Part shown: piece after piece, positions 6,441-59,151 of the stretch
How the letters are laid out: each line of letters opens with the position of its first letter
How positions within the stretch are numbered: the stretch's first letter is position 1
Source: an uncultured Bacillota bacterium
GTDB taxonomy: Bacteria > Bacillota > Clostridia > Oscillospirales > Oscillospiraceae
Direction: 5' to 3'
Assembly: GCA_947645675.1 (NCBI GenBank)
Contig: CANSDP010000008.1
Location: forward strand, 1 to 64,000
Length of the DNA stretch: 64,000 bases
The notes under the pieces: model-generated
The model's database searches: none
The model's input: the letters and a program-made list of their open reading frames with translations, nothing else
What the model was told of the DNA's origin: nothing
Position numbers and translations under genes: made by a program

Positions 6441-7679
6441 ATGAAAGAATTTAAATACGCCGCGGTAAAAGAGGAGTTTGAAAAGTGGAAGGAGCTGGGG
6501 CTGTCGCTGAACATCGCCCGGGGCAAGCCAAGCCTGGAGCAGCTGGAGCTGTCCCGGGACCTGTTCACCGCCCTGGACTTTGACGACTGTATCGACAACG
6601 GTGTGGACGCCCGGAACTACGGCGAGCTGGCCGGAATGCCCAGCGCCCGGGCCTACTGGGCCGAGCTGCTGGACGTGACGCCGGAGCAGTGCTTCGTGGG
6701 GGGCAGCTCCAGCCTGAACATGATGTACGACTTGATTGCCAAAGCGTGGAGCAACGGACTGCTCCACAGCGAAGCGCCCTGGTCCCAGCAAAAGGGCATT
6801 CAATTCCTCTGCCCCGTCCCCGGCTATGACCGGCACTTCCGCATTACAGAATCCTTCGGCATCGAGATGATCCCGGTTCGGATGCTGGACAGCGGCCCGG
6901 ATATGGACGAGGTGGAGCGGCTGGCCGCCGGCCCCAAGGTAAAGGGTATCTGGTGCGTGCCCAAATACTCCAACCCGGACGGCCATATCTATTCTGACGA
7001 GACTATCCGCCGCTTCGCCGCCCTGAAGCCGGCGGCCCCCGACTTCGTGGTGGTGTGGGACAACGCCTACTGCGTCCATGAGATCCGGGGGGACTATGTG
7101 CCCTTCCCCGACATTTTGAAGCTGTGCGCCCAGGCGGGAAGCCCGGACATGGTGGTGGAGTTTGCCTCCAGCTCCAAGATCACCTTCCCCGGGGCGGGCA
7201 TGTCGGTGCTGGCGGCCAGCAAGGCCAACATCGACTATCTCTGCGGCCTGGCCGACGCGCAGATGATCAGCGGCGACAAGGTGAACCAGCTGCGTCAGGT
7301 ACGCTTCCTGAAGGACAAGGCCCACACCCTGAACATGATGAAGCGGCACGCCGACGCCCTGCGCCCCCGGTTCGACGCCTTCCTCACAGAGCTGGACGAG
7401 GAGATCAAGCCCCTGGGCATCGCCAGCTGGACCAACCCCAGCGGCGGCTACTTCATCAGTATGTACACCCAGCCCGGCTGTGCCCGGCGGACGGTGGAGC
7501 TGTGCAGGGAGGCCGGACTGGTCCTCACCGGCGCCGGAGCCGCCTACCCCTACGGAAAGGACCCCCAGGACAGCCACATCCGTATCGCCCCCTCCTTCCC
7601 CCCGCTGAAGGACGTGGAGCTGGCCGCCAAGGTGTTCTGCACCTGCCTGAAGCTGGCCACCCTGGAGAAAGAAGGATAA
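6441..7679 (+). CDS. aspartate aminotransferase, type Ic (MocR-like fold)
   Basis: This is a fold-type I, PLP-dependent aminotransferase of 412 residues. It begins with the subgroup Ic signature LNIARGKPSLEQLELS. The PLP lysine lies in the segment EFASSSKITFPGAG, and the earlier VWDNAYCVHE corresponds to the Asp/Tyr cofactor contacts. It probably converts aspartate plus 2-oxoglutarate to oxaloacetate plus glutamate. I used ATG 6441 because AAAGGAGC precedes it; the in-frame ATG 63 bases upstream has no RBS. It lies 47 bp after the glucokinase gene and may be in the same operon. Confidence 0.88.
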   Translation: MKEFKYAAVKEEFEKWKELGLSLNIARGKPSLEQLELSRDLFTALDFDDCIDNGVDARNYGELAGMPSARAYWAELLDVTPEQCFVGGSSSLNMMYDLIAKAWSNGLLHSEAPWSQQKGIQFLCPVPGYDRHFRITESFGIEMIPVRMLDSGPDMDEVERLAAGPKVKGIWCVPKYSNPDGHIYSDETIRRFAALKPAAPDFVVVWDNAYCVHEIRGDYVPFPDILKLCAQAGSPDMVVEFASSSKITFPGAGMSVLAASKANIDYLCGLADAQMISGDKVNQLRQVRFLKDKAHTLNMMKRHADALRPRFDAFLTELDEEIKPLGIASWTNPSGGYFISMYTQPGCARRTVELCREAGLVLTGAGAAYPYGKDPQDSHIRIAPSFPPLKDVELAAKVFCTCLKLATLEKEG

Positions 7680-7693
7680 TTTTTTCGAAACGG

Positions 7694-7721
7694 TTGACAA
7701 TCCGGGAAAATGTGATACAAT
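7694..7721 (+). promoter_or_regulatory. sigma-A promoter of the T-box/alaS unit
   Basis: TTGACA (7694-7699) and TACAAT (7716-7721) have a 16-base spacer and an extended -10 TGA. It begins only 14 bases after the aminotransferase stop. Confidence 0.85.
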
Positions 7722-7729
7722 ATCCCGGT

Positions 7730-7954
7730 AAAATGCGACGACGGAGCCAAGCGCGCTTCCAGCGGCCCAAAGCGAGGGGGGAGGGTGAAAGCCCCCGGCT
7801 GAGACGGAGCGCGCGGGCCACTCCTGAGCGGCCCGGGACGACCGGGACGGCCTGTCCCCGTGACCGGACTGCTTGAGACGCCCCGTCCGCGGGGATAATC
7901 AGGGTGGTACCGTGGAGTCTTCCGCCCCTGACATGGTGTCAGGGGCGGTTTTTT
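7730..7954 (+). promoter_or_regulatory. T-box leader (tRNA-Ala sensing) with terminator/antiterminator
   Basis: The core T-box sequence AGGGTGGTACCGTG is at 7901-7914. It is followed by a perfect 12-bp terminator stem, CCGCCCCTGACA with TGTCAGGGGCGG (7922-7948), and six T. Upstream, an AGCGAGG...GGGTGAAAGCC segment (7771-7792) matches the stem I distal region. A GCT alanine codon at 7798-7800 is a candidate specifier (tentative, not modelled). The TGGT bulge would pair with an ACCA 3' end, consistent with the A discriminator of tRNA-Ala. Uncharged tRNA-Ala should favour the antiterminator and switch on the downstream lipoprotein and alaS genes. Confidence 0.92.
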
Positions 7955-7973
7955 GACGGAAGGAGGAAGTGTG

Positions 7974-8396
7974 ATGAGAAAAATTGCCCTTATGCTGGCC
8001 GTTCTGGGGGCGCTTCTCCTGCTGAGCGGCTGCAAGGTCTCCGGCAACCCCCTGCCCGAGGGAATGGAGGAGGAGACCGTGCTGGAACAGGGCCGGGAGG
8101 TGGTCGCTATGCTCAACGGCGGGGAGTGGCAGGAGGTCTACGACCTGCTCCGGTCCGACGCCCGGGAGACCTCCAGCCCCGAGACCATCCAGTCCTATAT
8201 GGAGGAACGGCTGGAAAAGGCCAAGGCCTACGTCAAAGAAACCGAGGCCATGGCCACCGGCCAGAAGCTCAAGGACACCGGCGAGGAGTACGGCACGGCG
8301 GTGATCTACTGCAAGCATGAGAAGAAGAGCGTCATGTACCGGGTGGCCTACAGCGTTGATATGGAGCTGATGGGCATCGAGGTCAAGGTACAGTAG
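7974..8396 (+). CDS. DUF3887-like lipoprotein in the alaS T-box unit
   Basis: This 140-residue exported lipoprotein has an N-terminus MRKIALMLAVLGALLLLSGC that is a signal peptide ending in lipobox LSGC, so Cys20 would be lipidated. The mature part is acidic and helical at first (MEEETVLEQGREVVAMLNGGEWQEVYDLL), like DUF3887 domains that measure or bind an unknown ligand; the family assignment is moderate. ATG 7974 has GGAGGAAG upstream, immediately after the T-box terminator. Its TAG stop lies at the start of a TAGGGGCGG repeat remnant. Its position makes it controlled by tRNA-Ala charging. Confidence 0.8.
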   Translation: MRKIALMLAVLGALLLLSGCKVSGNPLPEGMEEETVLEQGREVVAMLNGGEWQEVYDLLRSDARETSSPETIQSYMEERLEKAKAYVKETEAMATGQKLKDTGEEYGTAVIYCKHEKKSVMYRVAYSVDMELMGIEVKVQ

Positions 8397-8422
8397 GGGC
8401 GGCCTCCAGCCGCCCGCCCAAC
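8394..8422. repeat. short TAGGGGCGG palindrome remnant
   Basis: The sequence TAGGGGCGGCCTCCAGCCGCCC is a miniature form of the element at 16313-16384. Its first three bases are the stop codon of the lipoprotein gene. Confidence 0.6.
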
Positions 8423-8457
8423 CAACAATATAACAATATAAAACGGAGGTAATCAAC

Positions 8458-11142
<2,685 letters not shown>

Positions 11143-11145
11143 ACC

Positions 11146-11685
11146 ATGACACGGGACGATTTGAAGCGTTTTCAGGCGCTGGACATTGATTTTTCCGCCA
11201 TTGGCCTGGAGTGGGGCGGCCAGTTCTGCGATTACTTCTGTACTCCTATAGAAGCCGAGCCGGTGGGGGCCATCGGCTGTGACGGGGTCCACTTCATTCT
11301 TCTGCCTGGGGACGAGCGGGTGTTCTGTGTGGACCCGGCCATGGGGGAGGAGGGAAAGTTTGTCCTTCCTGTGGCCGGGGACTTCCGAGAATTTCTCTCC
11401 TTTGTCGTCTTCTGCCGGGACGCCAACCCCCTCTCCCAAATCTGGTGGATGGACGAGGCGAGGTTTCGTCAGCTGCTCCGGGAAGATGCTGAGCGAACCT
11501 GGCCCGGCTGTGAGGAGTGTTTCACCCGAAATAATGCTGCCCTGTCTGCCATTACCCGGGAGTTTGACCTGGCCCCCGCCGATCCCTTTGAGAAAGTAAA
11601 GGCCCTTCAGGCCAGCTTCGACCCGTCGGTGCTGCATTTTTCCGACGAGTACTACGATGTGCTGGGCCTGGAGCGGCCGGAATAA
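11146..11685 (+). CDS. uncharacterised protein downstream of alaS
   Basis: This 179-residue soluble protein has no signal peptide or membrane segment. It starts 3 bp after the alaS stop and so is likely translationally coupled. I do not recognise the family. Its overall pattern (aromatic-rich N-terminal half with WGGQFCDYF, a strand-like HFILLPGDERVFCVDP, then helices) is loosely reminiscent of SMI1/KNR4 (SUKH) proteins, but no decisive motif is visible. It may be expressed under T-box control by read-through from alaS. Confidence 0.7.
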   Translation: MTRDDLKRFQALDIDFSAIGLEWGGQFCDYFCTPIEAEPVGAIGCDGVHFILLPGDERVFCVDPAMGEEGKFVLPVAGDFREFLSFVVFCRDANPLSQIWWMDEARFRQLLREDAERTWPGCEECFTRNNAALSAITREFDLAPADPFEKVKALQASFDPSVLHFSDEYYDVLGLERPE

Positions 11686-11698
11686 GGAGGTTTTGTCC

Positions 11699-11872
11699 AT
11701 GCTTCCCCAGGACCCGATTATTTTACTCAGCTACGTCAACACCAAGCTCCGGGACGAGTACTCCAGCCTGGACGAGCTGTGCGCCGCCCTGGACGCCGGC
11801 CGGGAGGAGCTTGTCCGCAAGCTGGGAGCCGTGGGCTATGCCTACGACGAGGAGAAAAACCGCTTTTTGTAA
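11699..11872 (+). CDS. DUF4250 domain protein
   Basis: This 57-residue protein reads LPQDPIILLSYVNTKLRDEY at the N-terminus and VGYAYDEEKN near the C-terminus, the DUF4250 pattern common in Clostridia. It looks like a small helical protein with an HTH-like arrangement; its function is unknown. The strong RBS AAGGAGG lies 8 bases upstream of ATG 11699. It sits between the alaS-linked gene and the DUF4272 gene with short gaps, so it is probably in one operon with them. Confidence 0.88.
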   Translation: MLPQDPIILLSYVNTKLRDEYSSLDELCAALDAGREELVRKLGAVGYAYDEEKNRFL

Positions 11873-11884
11873 GGAGGAAACGCC

Positions 11885-13132
11885 ATGGGACTGTTCGACA
11901 AAAATAAGAAGCCCAAGGAGCCGCCCAGGCAGCAGCGCTCCGGGGTGATGGAGCTGATCTTCTGCCCCGCTGAGAGCTTGGAGCATATCATGGGCCGGAT
12001 TGAGTCTGCCCTGGGAGTGCACAGCCCCGGCACAGGCAACCGGATCAGCATTTACCAGGATGACATGCACATCGACTTCACCGGCTTTGTCGCGGACAAG
12101 GAGACGGAGAATGGAAAAAAGGCCCAGGAGCAGCTCCAGGGGGTGTGGGCCTACTTCCGGCAGGTGGAGACGGAACACATCGACATCCAGCGCAACCTGC
12201 TCTATCACCTGCGCCAGTGCCAGGGGATGGTGTCGGTGAACGCCGTCTACGACGGCCCCCAGAACGCGGACAAGGAGGGGGCCATCTCCGAGCGGATGGG
12301 GGTGGTGACAGCGGCGCTCCAGGGGGTGCTGACCTGGGGGATGGACGCCCTGGTGGATCCGGCGGGGAAAATCATTCTGAGCAAGGACGGGAAAAGCGAT
12401 CTGGAGTACTACATGCCCTCTGAGGTCCCCATCCCGGCGGACTGGGCCAAGGACGCGCCCCCGGAGGCGGTGGAGCGGCGAAACAAGTCGATGGCCCTGC
12501 TGCGGGACCGGCACATCTACGTCACCCCCTGGCTGCCCCTGCTGTGGGAGCGTGCGGAGGAGCCGGGCCGTACCGTGGAGGAGGTCTGCGGCAGGGCGGC
12601 GGCCCTGCTTATCGTGTCTCTCTACTCCGAGTGCCGGGTGGGGGAGCACATGTCCTATGAGAAGGCCCGGGAGTTTGTGGCCCCCATCATCGAAAGCTAT
12701 GGGGCGGAGAAGTTTTTCTCTCCGGACGAAAAGGCGTATCTGGACGACCCCGATTCTACCGAGCAGACCCAGATCCAGTACGCCTGGCAGTATGAAAACC
12801 TGTGGGTGATGGAGTGGGCCCTGGGCCTCACCGACGACCTGTTCTGGCCCACCCGTATCTGCGACGTGCCCGGCACGGTGCGGCTGCTGAAGGACTGCCA
12901 GACTATGGAGGATCTGCTGGCGGCGGCCAAGCTGCGCCCCCGGAAGGAGCTGCTGGACCAGGCCGACCTGATCTACCGCCTGCACTGGGCCTGCGTGGAC
13001 GCCCGGGTGATGAACATGCCCGCCCCCCAGGGGCTGGAGGAGGGCGTGGTCATGGAGCGCCACCGGGCTCTGTTCTGGCTGGCAGGCTGCGACGAGATGT
13101 GTCCATGGGACGAAGTGGATCTGTCTACTTAG
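11885..13132 (+). CDS. DUF4272 domain protein
   Basis: This cytoplasmic protein of 415 residues has the DUF4272 core in its middle: RRNKSMALLRDRHIYVTPWLPLL near residues 197-220, followed by a run of helices. The first 60 residues are charged and may be disordered. Function is unknown; family members are scattered in bacteria and sometimes sit near surface or toxin-immunity loci, which is not the case here. The RBS AAGGAGGAAACGCC precedes ATG 11885. A hairpin terminator follows. Confidence 0.85.
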   Translation: MGLFDKNKKPKEPPRQQRSGVMELIFCPAESLEHIMGRIESALGVHSPGTGNRISIYQDDMHIDFTGFVADKETENGKKAQEQLQGVWAYFRQVETEHIDIQRNLLYHLRQCQGMVSVNAVYDGPQNADKEGAISERMGVVTAALQGVLTWGMDALVDPAGKIILSKDGKSDLEYYMPSEVPIPADWAKDAPPEAVERRNKSMALLRDRHIYVTPWLPLLWERAEEPGRTVEEVCGRAAALLIVSLYSECRVGEHMSYEKAREFVAPIIESYGAEKFFSPDEKAYLDDPDSTEQTQIQYAWQYENLWVMEWALGLTDDLFWPTRICDVPGTVRLLKDCQTMEDLLAAAKLRPRKELLDQADLIYRLHWACVDARVMNMPAPQGLEEGVVMERHRALFWLAGCDEMCPWDEVDLST

Positions 13133-52385: not shown

Positions 52386-52416
52386 GGGCCCGCTTTTGGC
52401 GGGCCCTCAATTTTTT
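52386..52416. terminator. terminator between the small membrane gene and rpoN
   Basis: GGGCCCGC (52386-52393) pairs with GCGGGCCC (52399-52406); TCAATTTTTT follows on the plus strand. The T-run overlaps the rpoN stop. Confidence 0.85.
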
Positions 52417-53767
52417 ACTGCTTTCGTCCGGGCATATCCGGTATGTTCATCTCTCCCCGGTATTTGGCTACAGTCCGCCGGGAGATGGGACAGCCGGCCT
52501 GGGTCATGAGACCGGACAGCTTCTGGTCGGACAGGGGGCTGCGGGGGTCCTCCTGGTCGATGAGCTGTTTCAGCATCAGCCGGGCGGCGGTCCCTCCCAC
52601 CTGTGAGCCGTCCTTCTTCGCGGTGGCGCTGCGGGAGAAGAAGTAGCTCAGGGGATAGGTGCCCTGGGGGCACTGGATGTACTTGTCCCGCACCGCCCGG
52701 CTGACGGTGGACTCATGGAGCTCCAGCCGCTCCGCCGTTTCGGCCATAGTCATGGGCCGCAGGGCCTGGGGACCCTGGCGGAGAAATCCGGTCTGGGCGT
52801 CCACAATGGCCTGGGCGCACCGGAGCAGAGTGCTCTCCCGCTGGGTCACCGCCCGGAGGACGCCCTCCGCCTGATGGAGCTTGTCCCGGAGATAGTCCGC
52901 CACCTGGGGGTCCTGGGACTGAGCCAGGAGGCTGCGGTAATAGCCGTTGATCTGAAAGGGAGGCCGGCCCGGCCTCCGGAGGCGGGCCGCGTACCGCCCG
53001 CCCTTCTCCTCCACGAAGAGGTCGGGGAGGATATAGGGGGTCTGCTCCGCCCGGTCAAAGACAGCACCTGGCCGGGGGTCCAGCTCCCGGATGAGGGCGG
53101 CGGCGGCCTTGACCTCCTCAATGGGGAGGCTCAGCCGGGAGGCGATGGCGGCGTAGTGCCGCCGGGCCAGCGCCTCCAGGTGATGGCGCACGATGTCCAG
53201 TGCGGGACCCTCCTCATGGATGCGCTTCAGCTGAAGCTCCAGGCATTGGGACAGGTTCTCCGCCCCTACTCCGGCGGGCTCCAGCCCCCGGAGGATGTCC
53301 AGTGCCCGCTCCAGCCGGGAGAGGGGGATGCGGCCGCTTTGAGCCAGCTCGTCCAGGGAGACGGTGAGATAGCCCCGCTCGTCCAGGCAGGAGGCCAGAT
53401 ACCGCACCGTCTCGGCGGTCTCCTCCTCCAGGTCCATGGAGTAGAGCTGCCGTGAGAGAAAGCGGAACAGGGTCTCCTCCAGACCGCCGTCGGTCCCCAC
53501 CCGGGACAGGGGGTCCAGCTCCTCCTCGCTGAGCTGGTTGCAGTAGAAATTCTGGTGGTCGTTGTCCTCCAGCCACTGGAGATACCGAAGCAGCTCGTCC
53601 TCCTTCTCCGGGGCGGGGGCCTCCGGCTCCAGGTCCACCAGGGGGTTCTCCTGGGTCAGCTCGCGGAGATACTGCTCCAGCTCCATAGTACCCATCTGGA
53701 GTACCTTTAAGCCCATCAGCTGCTGGTGATTCAGCTGTTGGGTCTGTACCTGGGATAATTCCATCAT
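52415..53767 (-). CDS. rpoN: RNA polymerase sigma-54 factor
   Basis: This 450-residue sigma-54 has a Gln/Leu-rich region I (SQVQTQQLNHQQLMGLKVLQMGTMELEQYL) that blocks open-complex formation until an activator acts. A core-binding domain follows, then an HTH around MTMAETAERLELHESTVSRAVRDKYIQCP. The RpoN box is RRTVAKYRG, with the conserved Arg-Arg-Thr-Val-Ala-Lys-Tyr-Arg core intact. The RBS CAGGAGG is 5 bases from ATG. It starts 16 bp after the sigma-54 activator gene on the same strand, so the pair forms one transcript. Confidence 0.96.
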   Translation of the reverse strand: MMELSQVQTQQLNHQQLMGLKVLQMGTMELEQYLRELTQENPLVDLEPEAPAPEKEDELLRYLQWLEDNDHQNFYCNQLSEEELDPLSRVGTDGGLEETLFRFLSRQLYSMDLEEETAETVRYLASCLDERGYLTVSLDELAQSGRIPLSRLERALDILRGLEPAGVGAENLSQCLELQLKRIHEEGPALDIVRHHLEALARRHYAAIASRLSLPIEEVKAAAALIRELDPRPGAVFDRAEQTPYILPDLFVEEKGGRYAARLRRPGRPPFQINGYYRSLLAQSQDPQVADYLRDKLHQAEGVLRAVTQRESTLLRCAQAIVDAQTGFLRQGPQALRPMTMAETAERLELHESTVSRAVRDKYIQCPQGTYPLSYFFSRSATAKKDGSQVGGTAARLMLKQLIDQEDPRSPLSDQKLSGLMTQAGCPISRRTVAKYRGEMNIPDMPGRKQ

Positions 53768-53783: not shown

Positions 53784-55436
53784 TCAAAAGATTATTCCGT
53801 ATTTTCTGATGCGGTATTGCAGGCTCTGCCGCAGAATGCCCAGCGTCTGGGCGGTTTGAGAGATGTTGTAGCCGCAGTGCTCCAGGGCCTGGGCGATGAT
53901 CTGCCTCTCATAGTCGTCCATCAGCCCTTGCAGGGTCTTTTGGGAGAAATCCACCGGCTGAATAGGGGGGGCGGGCTCAGCGCGGTGCTTGAGGAGGTAG
54001 GGGGGCAGGTGCCGCGGCCCGATGAATTCGGAATCGGTGACGTTCTGGGCGTAGTCCAGCACGTGGAACAGCTCCCGCACGTTGCCCGGCCAGTGGTAAG
54101 AACGCAGGAGGGCGTAGACCTCCGGCTCGATCCGGGTGACCGCCCGGACAAACTGATAGGCGGTGGCGTCCAGGCGGTAGCGGATCAGCTCCTCCAGGTC
54201 CTCCATGTGGTCCCGGAGGGGGGGCAGCTCGATCATCACCGTGGACAGCCGGTAGAACAGGTCCCGGCGGAAGGTGTTTTCCGAAATGGCCTTGAAGGGG
54301 TCCTCGTTGCAGGAGGAGATCACCCGCACGTCCAGCCGCAGGTCCTGACTGCCCCCCACCCGGCGGAAGGTCTTCTCCTGGAGGACCCGCAGAATTTTGG
54401 ACTGCATGGCCAGGCTCATGGAGTTCAGCTCGTCCAGAAAGAGGGTGCCCCCGGCGGCCTCCTCCAGATAGCCCGCCTTGTCCTCACTGCCGGTGAAGCT
54501 GCCCTTTTTGGTACCGAAGAGGAGGCTTTCAATCAGCGTTTCCGGGACGGCGGCGCAGTTGATCGCCAGAAACTTGCCTCCCCGGCGGCGGCTGGCCCGG
54601 TGGATGCTCTGGGCGAATATCTCCTTACCCGTCCCCGTCTCCCCCACCAGGAGGATGGGGCTGTCCTGGGGGGCCACCCGCTGTGCCAGGGCCACCGCCT
54701 CCCGCAGCTTGGGGCAGCTGCCGATCACGTTGTCAAAGGTATAGCCGGAAAAGCTGATGTTCGGCGGCTTGTTCTGAAAGGAGCTGAGGGCCCGCCGGGT
54801 GGCCTCCAGCTTCTTGATGTTGGAGCCCACGATGTCCGCCGTCTGCTCAAAGACCACCGCCCCTAGCAGCTCCCCCTCCCGGAAGATGGGGTAGGAGGTG
54901 TTGGCCGAGGCGATGGGGGCGGCGCTGAAGTCATTGGTCCGGAAGCTGTCCACCCGGTCGATCACCGGAGCCTGGGTCTGGAGGGCGGTCATGGTGGTGC
55001 TGACGCTCTCGTCCAGGTTATACAGGTCCAGGAGGTGCCGTCCCTCTATATTGACCCCGCTGGGGATGCGGGAGATGCCCCGGCTGGCCCGGTTGAAAAA
55101 GACGGCGCAGGCGTTTTTGTCATAGATCTGCACCCCGTCGGAGATCTGGTCCAGAGCCCGGGCCAGGAGATAAGGCCGCTGGTCCACCCGCTTGAGCAGC
55201 AGCCAGCGGGTGTTCTCCGGGGCGGGGAGGATTTGAAAGGAAAAGGCGCTCTCCTCCCAGATAAACTGTCCGCTGGACGCGCCCTCGGGGAGGTCGAAAG
55301 CGGTGTTGGCCATCCGGCCGCTGCCGGCCCAGCTCTCAAAGAGGTCCCGATACAGGTCCTCAGCCTCCCGGTTCCCCCAGGAGACGCCGCAAAAGCGCCC
55401 CTGGGCGTCCAGGGTGAACAGAATGTCGTAGAGCAT
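53784..55436 (-). CDS. sigma-54-dependent transcriptional activator (PAS-AAA+-Fis)
   Basis: This 550-residue regulator has an N-terminal sensor half with PAS-like regions (ALDQISDGVQIYDKNACAVFFNRASRGISRI, about 95-125). A sigma-54 AAA+ domain follows, with Walker A GETGTGKE (265-272), Walker B GTLFLDELNSM, and a C-terminal Fis-type HTH (NISQTAQTLGILRQSLQYRIRKYG). The sigma-54 contact loop reads GSFTGS (312-317) instead of the usual GAFTGA. ATG 55436 has GGAGGGGAGAGGG upstream. It lies divergent from the BCCT/lyase genes, whose promoter is a -24/-12 type; it is the obvious activator. Confidence 0.93.
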   Translation of the reverse strand: MLYDILFTLDAQGRFCGVSWGNREAEDLYRDLFESWAGSGRMANTAFDLPEGASSGQFIWEESAFSFQILPAPENTRWLLLKRVDQRPYLLARALDQISDGVQIYDKNACAVFFNRASRGISRIPSGVNIEGRHLLDLYNLDESVSTTMTALQTQAPVIDRVDSFRTNDFSAAPIASANTSYPIFREGELLGAVVFEQTADIVGSNIKKLEATRRALSSFQNKPPNISFSGYTFDNVIGSCPKLREAVALAQRVAPQDSPILLVGETGTGKEIFAQSIHRASRRRGGKFLAINCAAVPETLIESLLFGTKKGSFTGSEDKAGYLEEAAGGTLFLDELNSMSLAMQSKILRVLQEKTFRRVGGSQDLRLDVRVISSCNEDPFKAISENTFRRDLFYRLSTVMIELPPLRDHMEDLEELIRYRLDATAYQFVRAVTRIEPEVYALLRSYHWPGNVRELFHVLDYAQNVTDSEFIGPRHLPPYLLKHRAEPAPPIQPVDFSQKTLQGLMDDYERQIIAQALEHCGYNISQTAQTLGILRQSLQYRIRKYGIIF

Positions 55437-55520
55437 AGCGCGCCCTCTCCCCTCCAAACACTTGGGGCCAAGGGCCCCGTAAGATTCAGTTTACCGGAAG
55501 GCGGGGCGGTTGTCAAGCTT

Positions 55521-55687: not shown

Positions 55688-55706
55688 GTTGGCCTGAAGC
55701 TTGCTT
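55688..55706 (+). promoter_or_regulatory. sigma-54 (-24/-12) promoter of the BCCT-lyase operon
   Basis: TTGGCCTGAAGCTTGCTT has GG at 55691-55692, exactly 10 bases, then GC at 55703-55704, matching TTGGC-N-TTGC(T). It lies about 65 bases upstream of the transporter start. Confidence 0.8.
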
Positions 55707-55769: not shown

Positions 55770-57347
55770 ATGAAACATGAGAACAAACCGATCCGATGGA
55801 ACGTATTCATCCCCTGCTTTGTGGTCATCGGCGGCGCGGCCCTGCTTGGCATCGTCAACAACGCCTGGCTGACCGAGGTCACCTACGCCATGTTCGACTG
55901 GTCGCTGAGCACCTTCGGCTGGCTGTACCAGATCGTGGCGATGGTCACCCTGCTGCTGGCCTGTCTGCTGATGTTCACCAAGGTGGGCAAGATCCGCTTC
56001 GGCGGTCCGGAGGCCAAGGCCAAGCACTCCTTCGGCTCCTGGTTCGCCATGACCCTCACCGGCGGCATCGCCACCGGCCTGATTACTTACGGCGTCAACG
56101 AGGTGCTGATCTACTACGGCAACATCTATGGCGAGCTGGACGGCTACGGCATCACCCCTCTGACCCAGGACGCGGAGCTGTTCGCCATGGGCCGATGCTT
56201 CTATAACTGGACCTTCATCCCCTACGCTATGTACGCCCTGTCCGGCGTGCTTATCGCCTATATGTATTTCAACCGCAAAAAGCAACTCTCCGTAGCGGCT
56301 TCCCTCACCCCCATCTTTGGGGAGAAGGTGACCCAGGGCTTCTGGGTGGTGCTGGTGGACGTGCTGTCCGTGCTGGCCATCGCGCTGGGCCTGGCCTCCT
56401 CTCTGGGCGCCGGTCTGGCCCTCATCGGCTCCGGCCTCTACTCCGCATACGGCGTGGAGCAGGGCCCCATCGTTTGGATTGCCCTCACCGCCATTATCAC
56501 CATCACCTTTACCATCGCCTCGGTCACCGGCATCGACAAGGGCATCAAGTGGCTGGCCGGCCTGACCTCCAAGATCTTCTATGTGCTGCTGGTTCTGCTG
56601 TTTGTGATTGGCCCCACCATCTACATTTTGAATATGGCCAACGTGGGCCTGGGCTACTGGCTGGACCGGTTCTGGATGTGGGGCTTCGACCCCTACACCG
56701 TGGGCGGCTCCGCCCTGGTCACCTGGTGGACCATGTATGACTGGGCTATCTGGATCGCCTACGCCCCCCTGATGGGCATCTTCTTCGCCATCATCGCCTA
56801 CGGCCGCACCGTGCGGCAGTTCCTCATCGTCAACTGGATTCTGCCCGCCTCCTTCGGCTTTGTGTGGTTCTCCGTTTGGGGCTCCACCGCTCTGGAGTGG
56901 CAGAAGAGCGGCAGCGCCGACATCATTGCCGCCATCAAGGACGGCGGCGCTACCGCCGGTCTGTGGGAGTTCCTCAAGAACGTCCCCCTGGGCATGATTA
57001 TCATTCCCGTTATCATCCTGGCGCTCATCGCCGCCTTCTCCACCACGGCGGACACCATGTCCACCACCATCGCCGCCCTGTGCACCAAGGGTGCCCGCCA
57101 CGATGAGGAACCCGCCATTTGGCAGAAGATCGTCTGGGGCGTGTCCATCGGCGTGATCGCCTGCATTATGGTGGCCTTCGGCGGCGGCGCTCAGGGCGTG
57201 GACGGCGTGAAGTACCTGGCGGCCTGCGGCGGCTTCGTGGTGCTGGTGGTGTTTATCTTCCAGGTGGCCGCAGCCTTTAAGGTGTTCTTCTTCGACCCTG
57301 AGACCAAAAAGGATATCGTGGACAGTGTGGACCAGATTGAAGTATAA
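55770..57347 (+). CDS. BCCT-family transporter (quaternary ammonium / betaine type)
   Basis: This 525-residue protein has about 12 membrane helices. The BCCT signature segment is TWWTMYDWAIWIAYAPLMGIFFAIIAYGRTVRQF (about residues 310-345). Compared with BetP (YWGWWISWSPF), one Trp of the aromatic box is Ile and one is Tyr, so the substrate may not be glycine betaine. The glycine-rich GIATGLITYGVNE matches the substrate/ion region of TM3. It imports carnitine, betaine or similar trimethylammonium compounds in known members. ATG 55770 has GGAGAGAAAC upstream. It is followed 15 bp later by the lyase. Confidence 0.92.
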   Translation: MKHENKPIRWNVFIPCFVVIGGAALLGIVNNAWLTEVTYAMFDWSLSTFGWLYQIVAMVTLLLACLLMFTKVGKIRFGGPEAKAKHSFGSWFAMTLTGGIATGLITYGVNEVLIYYGNIYGELDGYGITPLTQDAELFAMGRCFYNWTFIPYAMYALSGVLIAYMYFNRKKQLSVAASLTPIFGEKVTQGFWVVLVDVLSVLAIALGLASSLGAGLALIGSGLYSAYGVEQGPIVWIALTAIITITFTIASVTGIDKGIKWLAGLTSKIFYVLLVLLFVIGPTIYILNMANVGLGYWLDRFWMWGFDPYTVGGSALVTWWTMYDWAIWIAYAPLMGIFFAIIAYGRTVRQFLIVNWILPASFGFVWFSVWGSTALEWQKSGSADIIAAIKDGGATAGLWEFLKNVPLGMIIIPVIILALIAAFSTTADTMSTTIAALCTKGARHDEEPAIWQKIVWGVSIGVIACIMVAFGGGAQGVDGVKYLAACGGFVVLVVFIFQVAAAFKVFFFDPETKKDIVDSVDQIEV

Positions 57348-57362: not shown

Positions 57363-58895
57363 ATGGAAGAGATGAAAACGCTTGTACTGGGCGAGCCCAT
57401 CACCCTGGAGGACTTCGTCTCCGTGGCCCGGTTCGGGCGGAAGGTGGAGTTTTCTCCCGCGTACACGGAGCGGGTGGCCCGCTCCCGGGCTCTGGTGGAG
57501 CAGTGGGTGGAGGAGGAACGGGTGATGTACGGCGTCACCACCGGCTTCGGTGCTCTGTGTACCAAGGCCATCGACAAGGAGGCCACCGCCCAGCTCCAGG
57601 AGAACATCATTCTGTCCCACTCCGTCTCGGTGGGCGAGCCCCTGAGCGTGGAGCGGGTACGGGGCATCATGCTCATGGTACTGCAAAACATCGGCCAGGG
57701 ATACAGCGGCGTGCGGATGTGCGTGCTGGAGCGGTACCGGGATTTCCTCAACGCCGGTCTGACTCCCTATGCCCCGGGCAGCGGCAGCGTGGGCTACCTC
57801 TCCCCCGAGGCCCATATGGCCCTGGTCCTGCTGGGCCGGGGGAAGGCCTACTACAAAGGCGAGCTGCTGGAGGGGGCCGAGGCGTTGGCCCGGGCCGGGC
57901 TGGAGCCCATGGAGCTCAGCTCCAAGGAGGGCCTGGCCCTGGTGTCCGGCACCACCTCCGCCACCGCGATGGCCGCCCTGGCCCTCTACGACATGCTCAA
58001 CGCCGCCAAGTCCGCCGACATCGTGGGGGCAATGTCCCTGGAGGCTATGAAGGGGGTCATCAACGCCTTTGACCCCCGGGTGATGGCCGTCCGTCCCCAC
58101 CCCGATCAGCTCAACGCCTCGGAGAATGTCCGCCGGATGCTGAAGGGGTCGGGCATCATGGAGAAGTACCGGGGCAGCCGGGTCCAGGACGCCCTGTCCC
58201 TGCGGTGCATCCCCCAGCTCCACGGCGCGGCCCGGAAGACCCTGGAGGACGCGAAAAAGACCATCGAGATCGAGATGAACTCCTGCTGCGACAACCCCAT
58301 TATCTGGCCAGAGAAGGGCAACGAGGACGTGATCTCCGCCTGCAACGCCGACTCGGCCTATGTGGGCATGGAGATGGACAGCGCCTGCATCGCCGCCGTG
58401 GGCTTGGCGAAGATGTCCGAGCGGCGGAACAACCGCATTGTGGACGGCTCTCTGTCGGGCTACCCCTTCTTCTGCATCAAGGAGCCGGGGCTGAACTCCG
58501 GGCTGATGATCCCCCAGTACGTCCAGGCCGGCCTGCTGAACGAGATGCGGATGCTTGCTACCCCCTCCACCATCGACAACACCCCCACCTGCGGCAACCA
58601 GGAGGACTATGTGGCCATGGGCTACAACGCCTGCAAGAAGTCGGGGCCCATGGCGGAGAAGCTGGAGTACATGCTGGCCATTGAGCTGCTCAGCGTGTAT
58701 CAGGTGCAGCAGTTCGTGGACCCGGACGTGAGCCGGGCCCCCGCCACGGCGGCGGTGCTGGCCGAAATCGGCAAGACCGTTCCGGTGATGGAGAAGGACA
58801 TGCTGCTCCATCCCTACATTGAGTACCTGAAGGACTTTATCCACTCGGGCGGCTTGATCCGGGTGGCCGAGCAAGTGACAGGAGCGCTGAGCTGA
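57363..58895 (+). CDS. HAL/PAL-fold lyase lacking the MIO triad; candidate ergothionase-like enzyme
   Basis: This 510-residue member of the histidine/phenylalanine ammonia-lyase superfamily has YGVTTGFGAL (Tyr56), His86 (LSHSVSVGEP) and VQDALSLRC with Arg281. The Ala-Ser-Gly that cyclises into the MIO cofactor is missing: GSVG at 141-144 runs straight into YLSPEAHMAL, where histidase has GSVG-ASG-DLAPLAHMAL. The Asn of the LxNGT motif is Ser195 and the Tyr of QDPYSLR is Leu278. Enzymes of this fold known to work without MIO include ergothionase, which eliminates trimethylamine from ergothioneine. With a BCCT transporter in the same operon, a betaine-eliminating role is the best inference. It is not a normal histidase. 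Confidence 0.82.
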   Translation: MEEMKTLVLGEPITLEDFVSVARFGRKVEFSPAYTERVARSRALVEQWVEEERVMYGVTTGFGALCTKAIDKEATAQLQENIILSHSVSVGEPLSVERVRGIMLMVLQNIGQGYSGVRMCVLERYRDFLNAGLTPYAPGSGSVGYLSPEAHMALVLLGRGKAYYKGELLEGAEALARAGLEPMELSSKEGLALVSGTTSATAMAALALYDMLNAAKSADIVGAMSLEAMKGVINAFDPRVMAVRPHPDQLNASENVRRMLKGSGIMEKYRGSRVQDALSLRCIPQLHGAARKTLEDAKKTIEIEMNSCCDNPIIWPEKGNEDVISACNADSAYVGMEMDSACIAAVGLAKMSERRNNRIVDGSLSGYPFFCIKEPGLNSGLMIPQYVQAGLLNEMRMLATPSTIDNTPTCGNQEDYVAMGYNACKKSGPMAEKLEYMLAIELLSVYQVQQFVDPDVSRAPATAAVLAEIGKTVPVMEKDMLLHPYIEYLKDFIHSGGLIRVAEQVTGALS

Positions 58896-58896
58896 T

Positions 58897-59151
58897 ATGA
58901 AAAAGGAAGTCACCAGAGTGGAGATCGACCTGAAAAAGATTTTTTTAACGCCCCCCAACACCCGCCGGGAGCAGATTACCCTTTTGGCGATGATGGTGGT
59001 GCTGTTCGTCATGTTCTTTGGCCCCATCTGCTTTACCGAGATCCATCCGGTGAAGGCCATCCTGCTGGCCAGCCTGCCAGCTCTGTCCGTCTCCTGGGGC
59101 TGGATCGTGCTGCTGCGGTCCCTGTTCCATAAATCTGAGTTTTGCCGCTGA
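58897..59151 (+). CDS. small two-helix membrane protein of the BCCT-lyase operon
   Basis: This 84-residue protein has two hydrophobic helices (ITLLAMMVVLFVMFFGPICFTEI and AILLASLPALSVSWGWIVLL) and a charged N-terminus (MKKEVTRVEIDLKKIFLTPPNTRREQ). It starts one base after the lyase stop, so it is translationally coupled. I recognise no family. It may be an accessory of the transporter. A terminator follows. Confidence 0.75.
   Translation: MKKEVTRVEIDLKKIFLTPPNTRREQITLLAMMVVLFVMFFGPICFTEIHPVKAILLASLPALSVSWGWIVLLRSLFHKSEFCR

Follow-up and report, generated by a model that had tools for sequence, protein, structure and literature searches.

What reaction is carried out by an enzyme that has the fold of a histidine ammonia-lyase (HAL), lacks the residues that form the MIO cofactor, and is encoded directly behind a BCCT-family transporter? 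The question arises from a window of 64,000 nucleotides, the whole stretch of DNA analysed here (contig CANSDP010000008.1, positions 1 to 64,000, from an uncultured bacterium of the Oscillospiraceae). Its gene at 57363..58895 on the forward strand, with an ATG start, encodes a MIO-less HAL-fold lyase of 510 amino acids, which we propose to act as a hercynine trimethylamine-lyase. The protein matches Pfam Lyase_aromatic (PF00221) at 548 bits, above the gathering score and with the fold of that family. When aligned with the HALs of P. putida (HutH, 1eb4/1b8f) and T. acidophilum (7tqr), it reads GSVG-YLSPEAHM where these enzymes read GSVG-ASG-DLAPLAHM, so that three residues are gone, including the Ser-Gly of the MIO triad; the codons for Gly144-Tyr145-Leu146-Ser147 (57792..57803, forward strand) mark the site of the Ala-Ser-Gly deletion. 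Tyr56, His86 and Arg281 are retained, and Ser195 and Leu278 stand in place of Asn195 and Tyr280 of P. putida HutH. A sequence-only reading of this DNA had claimed both the missing triad and the identity of these five residues, and the alignment bears it out on both.

We extended the active-site alignment, in P. putida numbering, to 71 related rows with 60% identity or more, together with 12 HAL rows and two ergothionases. The HAL-like residues Tyr53, Gln277, Arg283 and Glu414 are present in all 71 related rows and His83 in 70; Ala142 is replaced by Tyr, and Ser143-Gly144-Asp145 by a gap, in 71 of 71. Further substitutions are Asn195 to Ser (69 rows), Tyr280 to Leu (69), His330 to Asp (71) and Pro333 to Tyr (70). 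As the deletion and these substitutions recur in 71 rows, the loss of the triad in the window lyase is no sequencing slip; the rows are related, some of them nearly identical, and thus do not amount to 71 independent events. The window lyase itself has all four of the residues taken as a test for HALs (P. putida Tyr53, His83, Arg283 and Glu414). In HutH, His83 and Glu414 hold the imidazole, and Tyr53 and Arg283 likewise belong to the residues for imidazole, carboxylate and base. The pattern in window-type lyases fits a pocket whose histidine end would have been kept and whose amine end would have been rebuilt. Paralogs at 58% and 43% identity (L014 and L016) also lack the triad and keep Asn195; the second of them has Tyr280 and Phe329 as well.

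That such a protein would be mislabelled as a HAL, as the sequence-only reading also supposed, is partly right: the window lyase falls just short of both NCBIfam HAL models (520.2 against a cut-off of 524, and 504 against 539 for TIGR01225), but relatives of it do not. One window-type lyase (L117) passes one of the cut-offs (524.4 of 524), and a MIO-less paralog, GSVGYLQPGAHMAL (L122, 5666-7240), passes both (565 of 524, and 544 of 539 on the HutH equivalog) and would therefore be named histidine ammonia-lyase.

Ergothionase is the nearest known reaction type (PMC13405746 and PMC7653990), and the window lyase could be an ergothionase that converts ergothioneine to trimethylamine and thiourocanate. 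Like ergothionase, the window lyase is without MIO, has Ser195 and Leu280 and is acidic at position 330; it also has a BCCT partner. However, the window genome (82% complete) contains four PF00221 genes, on contigs C39, C8, C2 and C1: that on C8 is the window gene, that on C39 encodes a HAL with the cofactor triad, that on C2 a shortened MIO-less paralog, and the product of that on C1 matches the T. denticola ergothionase 6s7j at 662 bits. The window lyase scores 186 bits against that ergothionase and 299 bits against a HAL, and is about 31% identical to the C1 ergothionase ortholog of its own genome. This ortholog has its own BCCT gene beside it (L020, 7755-13785), so that a BCCT partner by itself does not distinguish ergothioneine from further betaines; a molybdopterin-hydroxylase gene of divergent sequence (MoCoBD domains) and a small ORF also begin beside it. 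Further, at positions 57 and 413 the window lyase agrees with HAL (Thr and Gln), whereas the two ergothionases carry Arg and Ile there. No NCBIfam ergothionase model matched the ortholog or its relatives, their best matches being HAL models below cut-off.

The partner transporter is itself not constant within the family. Pseudoflavonifractor phocaeensis An858 carries an 83% ortholog of the window lyase beside a different BCCT protein, which is 33% identical to that of the window and 55% identical to the BCCT beside the true ergothionase, a similarity that would speak for ergothioneine; in strain An901 of this species the BCCT is of the window type (89%). With just 33% identity between the An858 and window transporters, the BCCT partner has evidently been swapped within the family.

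In the tree, the window lyase lies in a well supported MIO-less clade of 36 rows, apart from the ergothionase clade: seven ergothionase-like rows fall on one side of a branch supported at 99/97 and the window's group on another, and the window lyase, which has a different deletion, does not group with T. denticola ergothionase. A union of both MIO-less groups stands in the AU test (p 0.48, not rejected), which can be counted for an ergothionase and leaves room for a deeper common MIO-less ancestor of the two groups. The HAL rows form no single clade, and the deep forks are unsure because an L105 row, P. putida HutH and the TAM outgroup sit on long branches. We have dropped ergothionase as the leading identity, given the true ortholog elsewhere in the genome and the opposition of the tree and neighbour tests, and we now regard it as unlikely.

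If urocanate were the product instead, the window genome can, to judge from its gene content, carry it on. Its HutU (439 bits, cut-off 375), HutI (471, cut-off 298) and FtcD (376, cut-off 221) are over their cut-offs and lie on C2, together with a HutD-like gene and an FchA-like gene that is below cut-off (197 of 275). HutU is rare in the family of this genome, being found in nine of 150 genomes (over cut-off in eight); the same nine are all those with any match to the window protein, and two of the nine hold window-type genes. On C2 there is also a MIO-less paralog of 44% identity with its sigma-54 activator (L021, 9791-10777 and 11021-11911), both of which look internally shortened, and this locus may be decaying; in its counterpart in An858 (L025 of G039) both are full length.

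The hydratases linked to window-type lyases bear on the choice between urocanate and thiourocanate. The NCBIfam cut-offs are 375 for hutU, 930 for thiourocanate hydratase and 880 for S-methyl-thiourocanate hydratase, and the hutU model alone cannot separate these enzymes, because a thiourocanate hydratase also scores 708 bits on it. Hydratases were tested from eight of the 14 loci with HutU; all eight pass hutU (433-1000 bits) and lie below both thiourocanate cut-offs. The separation is sharp for five of them (L117, L100, L102, L123 and L091, with 982-1000 bits on hutU and 703-718 on thiourocanate hydratase) and weaker for the divergent long form (L120, L071 and L069, with 433-451 and 288-313), while the HutU of the window genome scores 439 and 307. 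No hydratase in the window genome is over the thiourocanate cut-off. Paenibacillus sp. Root444D2 provides a positive control: in one of its operons an ergothionase-like lyase (GSVGAGDI) occurs with a thiourocanate hydratase (1023 of 930), followed by ErtE (583 of 520) and ErtD (784 of 650); its window-type lyase, by contrast, is accompanied by HutU, HutI and a HutG that narrowly misses its cut-off (229.0 of 229.15). Among 17 carrier genomes searched, only Root444D2 encodes a hydratase that passes the thiourocanate hydratase model. In Domibacillus (G514) HutU is encoded twice, once near a HAL that retains the cofactor residues and once in the operon of the BCCT and window-type lyase genes. On the other side, the L102 operon encodes an amidohydrolase resembling ErtE, which scores below that model's cut-off (446 of 520).

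We compared neighbours across 80 related loci, clustering ORFs at 28% identity over 60% of length. BCCT proteins occur in 52 loci, sigma-54 activators in 42, HutI in 15 and HutU in 14; rarer clusters are FtcD (11), FchA-like (11), HutD-like (9) and HutG-like (5). All 53 BCCT ORFs lie on the strand of the lyase and 49 are within 400 bases of it. HutU and/or HutI are found in 15 loci, where we estimate that about 0.4 of 80 loci would have one gene within 10 kb by chance, and in 13 of these 15 there is no MIO-type HAL within the fetched stretch; the remaining two (L069 and L082) are from Acidaminococcus. Neither HutU nor HutI occurs within the stretch covered in the other 65 loci, among which are the window's own and those most closely related to it.

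The linkage can be very close. Bacillus sp. V3-13 (L117) has BCCT, 22 nt, lyase, 35 nt, HutU, HutI and a HutG-like gene in that order; Domibacillus indicus (L091) and Bacillus sp. 03113 (L102) have BCCT, lyase, an unnamed ORF, HutU and HutI, and in these three operons the lyase is 61-62% identical to that of the window. Locus L123 has an MFS transporter, the lyase, a regulator-like ORF, HutU, HutI and a HutG-like gene. The window BCCT is identical at 77% to that of L082, 75% to L069, 61% to L091, 60% to L102 and 59% to L117, and by these identities belongs to the same subfamily; the lyases of these five loci match the window lyase at 61-73%. HutI is over cut-off in L117 and L102, and FtcD in L071. 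The names HutG-like (229.0, 228.1 and 170.8 against 229.15), FchA-like (192 and 197 against 275) and HutD-like (named by eye, with no NCBIfam match for the two tested) are tentative, as these proteins are below cut-off or without a match. The 36-row clade divides into two main branches (97/94 and 91/97), each of which includes hut-linked lyases, and the linkage label requires nine changes on the thinned tree. Among 29 carrier genomes searched for HutU, two have no match and one has a fragment only, and urocanate is therefore not degradable by the HutU route in all carriers.

The hut link could in part be a relic of descent from HutH, and it also fits a MIO-independent HAL, or a mono- or dimethylhistidine lyase, that would yield urocanate and ammonia or a lower methylamine. 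The window lyase is most similar to a HAL and has retained the imidazole and carboxylate residues; two of 20 carrier genomes (G515 of L102 and G523 of L061) have no other PF00221 gene, and there a histidine-lyase role for the MIO-less gene is conceivable. The remaining 18 have a further PF00221 gene of more than 600 bits, and those inspected (G514, G516, G530 and L069) have the MIO triad. Ammonia is a poor leaving group in the absence of MIO, and BCCT proteins carry quaternary ammonium compounds. We consider this reading decidedly unlikely.

Alternatively, the substrate could be the betaine of a different aromatic amino acid (tyrosine, phenylalanine or tryptophan), which would be split into trimethylamine and an acrylate, and substrates may vary in this family since diverged paralogs have other transporters, such as the sodium:neurotransmitter-type symporter beside the 58% paralog. 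However, the window-type lyases have retained the HAL residues His83 (70 of 71) and Glu414 (71 of 71), and HutU and HutI act on imidazole compounds, making such a substrate very improbable.

We consider it probable, from sequence comparison, that the window gene encodes a MIO-independent hercynine (trimethylhistidine) trimethylamine-lyase, which would produce trimethylamine and urocanate. Of the sequence-only reading, a trimethylamine lyase acting on a histidine-derived betaine is what survives as most likely; ergothioneine as the specific substrate, and with it the ergothionase headline, give way to hercynine, which was already among the assay substrates that it suggested. The missing triad, the pattern of kept and altered residues, the order of the genes, the distinct ergothionase and clade, and the recurrent linkage to urocanate hydratase in relatives are observed; what the transporter carries, what the lyase cleaves and forms, how the operon is controlled and why the cofactor could be lost are what we infer. 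We propose that the BCCT protein imports hercynine (N-alpha-trimethyl-L-histidine), a compound that occurs in mushrooms. In the lyase, which would have retained the HAL machinery of Tyr56, His86, Gln275, Arg281 and Glu414, Arg281 would bind the carboxylate, His86 and Glu414 the imidazole, and Tyr56 would take the beta-proton; the trimethylammonium group may be held by Tyr145, Asp330 and Tyr333. The electrophilic MIO and its surrounding residues may have been lost because this quaternary group is already a good leaving group, and elimination without an electrophile would then release trimethylamine and urocanate. Urocanate would enter the ordinary histidine route through HutU, HutI, FtcD and probably FchA, encoded elsewhere in the genome. 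As to the use of trimethylamine by MttB, there is no MTTB match in G000 or G039, and one of eight genomes searched has any match.

How is this system likely to be expressed? The BCCT gene (55770..57347, forward strand; PF02028 at 361 bits against a gathering score of 27) stops 15 bases upstream of the lyase start on the same strand, in agreement with the betaine-type transporter partner of the sequence-only reading; it is below the glycine betaine transporter equivalog NF047988 (300 bits, cut-off 650). Just upstream of its ATG is a sigma-54 -24/-12-like site, TGGCCTGAAGCTTGCT (55690..55705, forward strand), and this position makes ATG 55770 a likelier start than TTG 55701 of the longest frame. 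Among relatives, 26 of 52 BCCT genes are preceded by a site with no more than one mismatch, which random stretches drawn from the same loci gave in 21 of 1040 cases; the site of the window, having two mismatches, falls short of this threshold. Upstream, on the reverse strand, lie a PrdR-like sigma-54-dependent transcriptional activator (53784..55457; 343 bits, below the model cut-off of 795) and RpoN, sigma-54 itself (52415..53767; 383 bits, over the cut-off of 277), to which ORFs in 11 of 80 loci are related. The BCCT-lyase operon is probably switched on by a sigma-54 activator. An858 has the same set of regulator, BCCT, lyase and RpoN genes as the window (L054, 7881-9500).

One base past the lyase stop begins a small protein of 84 amino acids (58897..59151, forward strand), hydrophobic by eye and with no match in Pfam or NCBIfam. 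It occurs in 34 of the 80 loci and is tied to the transporter: 33 of 47 loci with a window-type BCCT have it, as against none of five with the other type and one of 28 whose stretch contains no BCCT. It is a possible transporter subunit.

Several related loci differ from this arrangement. In five (L104, L112, L116, L125 and L056) two MIO-less lyases are encoded in tandem, the first about 69-77% and the second about 54-59% identical to the window lyase; the second could act on a different substrate or enter mixed oligomers. In An858 the 58% paralog adjoins a sodium:neurotransmitter-type symporter (PF00209) and no BCCT gene (L024 of G039, 6906-10108), hinting at another substrate, and HutP (PF09021, 116 bits) is encoded downstream of the 43% MIO-less paralog (L025 of G039, 11620-12048), a further hint that the family handles histidine-like compounds. 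In a goat-gut Lachnospiraceae a molybdopterin-hydroxylase gene (MoCoBD domains) lies 13 bases after the window-type lyase (L071, 11187-13481).

On balance we lean towards a separate hercynine-degrading pathway, comprising a BCCT, sodium:solute or MFS importer, the MIO-free lyase, HutU and HutI, which would extend across Bacillota, including the gut genera Pseudoflavonifractor, Acidaminococcus and Blautia, and would release trimethylamine from an uncounted betaine; HAL-fold lyases without MIO would then form at least two branches. Hercynine is described in PMC7653990 as a main human metabolite of ergothioneine. In passages of PMC13405746 ergothionase was judged rare by BLAST with one sequence, with a warning of divergent homologues; such a search would probably miss the window clade or call it HAL. 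In passages of PMC4595634 histidine betaine was lost from biocrust soil water, but none of the tested isolates, which included two Bacillus, took it up; this is no direct support for a hercynine lyase. Word searches of open-licence PubMed Central gave no hercynine lyase, degradation, catabolism or hercynase among the matches listed, and a description in a subscription journal is possible.

If our proposal is true, it adds a trimethylamine-forming reaction and an entry into histidine degradation from hercynine, and surveys of trimethylamine genes could separate hercynine lyases from ergothionases and from the HALs that they resemble most. It would also be a natural test of the need for MIO: the fold and the ring are the same, the leaving group has changed and the cofactor is gone.

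Compared with known systems, the window lyase would work like ergothionase and yet fails as a member of that group. Ergothionase of T. denticola (PDB 6s7j/6s7q) likewise has the HAL fold without MIO, keeps Tyr53, His83, Arg283 and Glu414, and has Ser195 and Leu280, with Glu at HAL position 330 where the window family has Asp, both being acidic; the ergothionase ortholog of the window genome, too, has a BCCT neighbour. In contrast, the window lyase is 28% identical to the T. denticola enzyme in structural alignment and reads GSVGYL where that reads GSIGEGDI, and the linked hydratases of its family are of the urocanate type where tested, whereas that of the ergothionase-like lyase of Root444D2 is of the thiourocanate type. 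From HutH (TIGR01225) it differs in lacking Ala-Ser-Gly and in the replacement of Asn195, Tyr280, Phe329 and His330. Its hut-linked relatives resemble the Ert operon in the modular combination of a MIO-less lyase with a hydratase and amidohydrolases, but the genes that accompany window-type lyases are those for HutU and HutI, where the Ert operon has thiourocanate hydratase.
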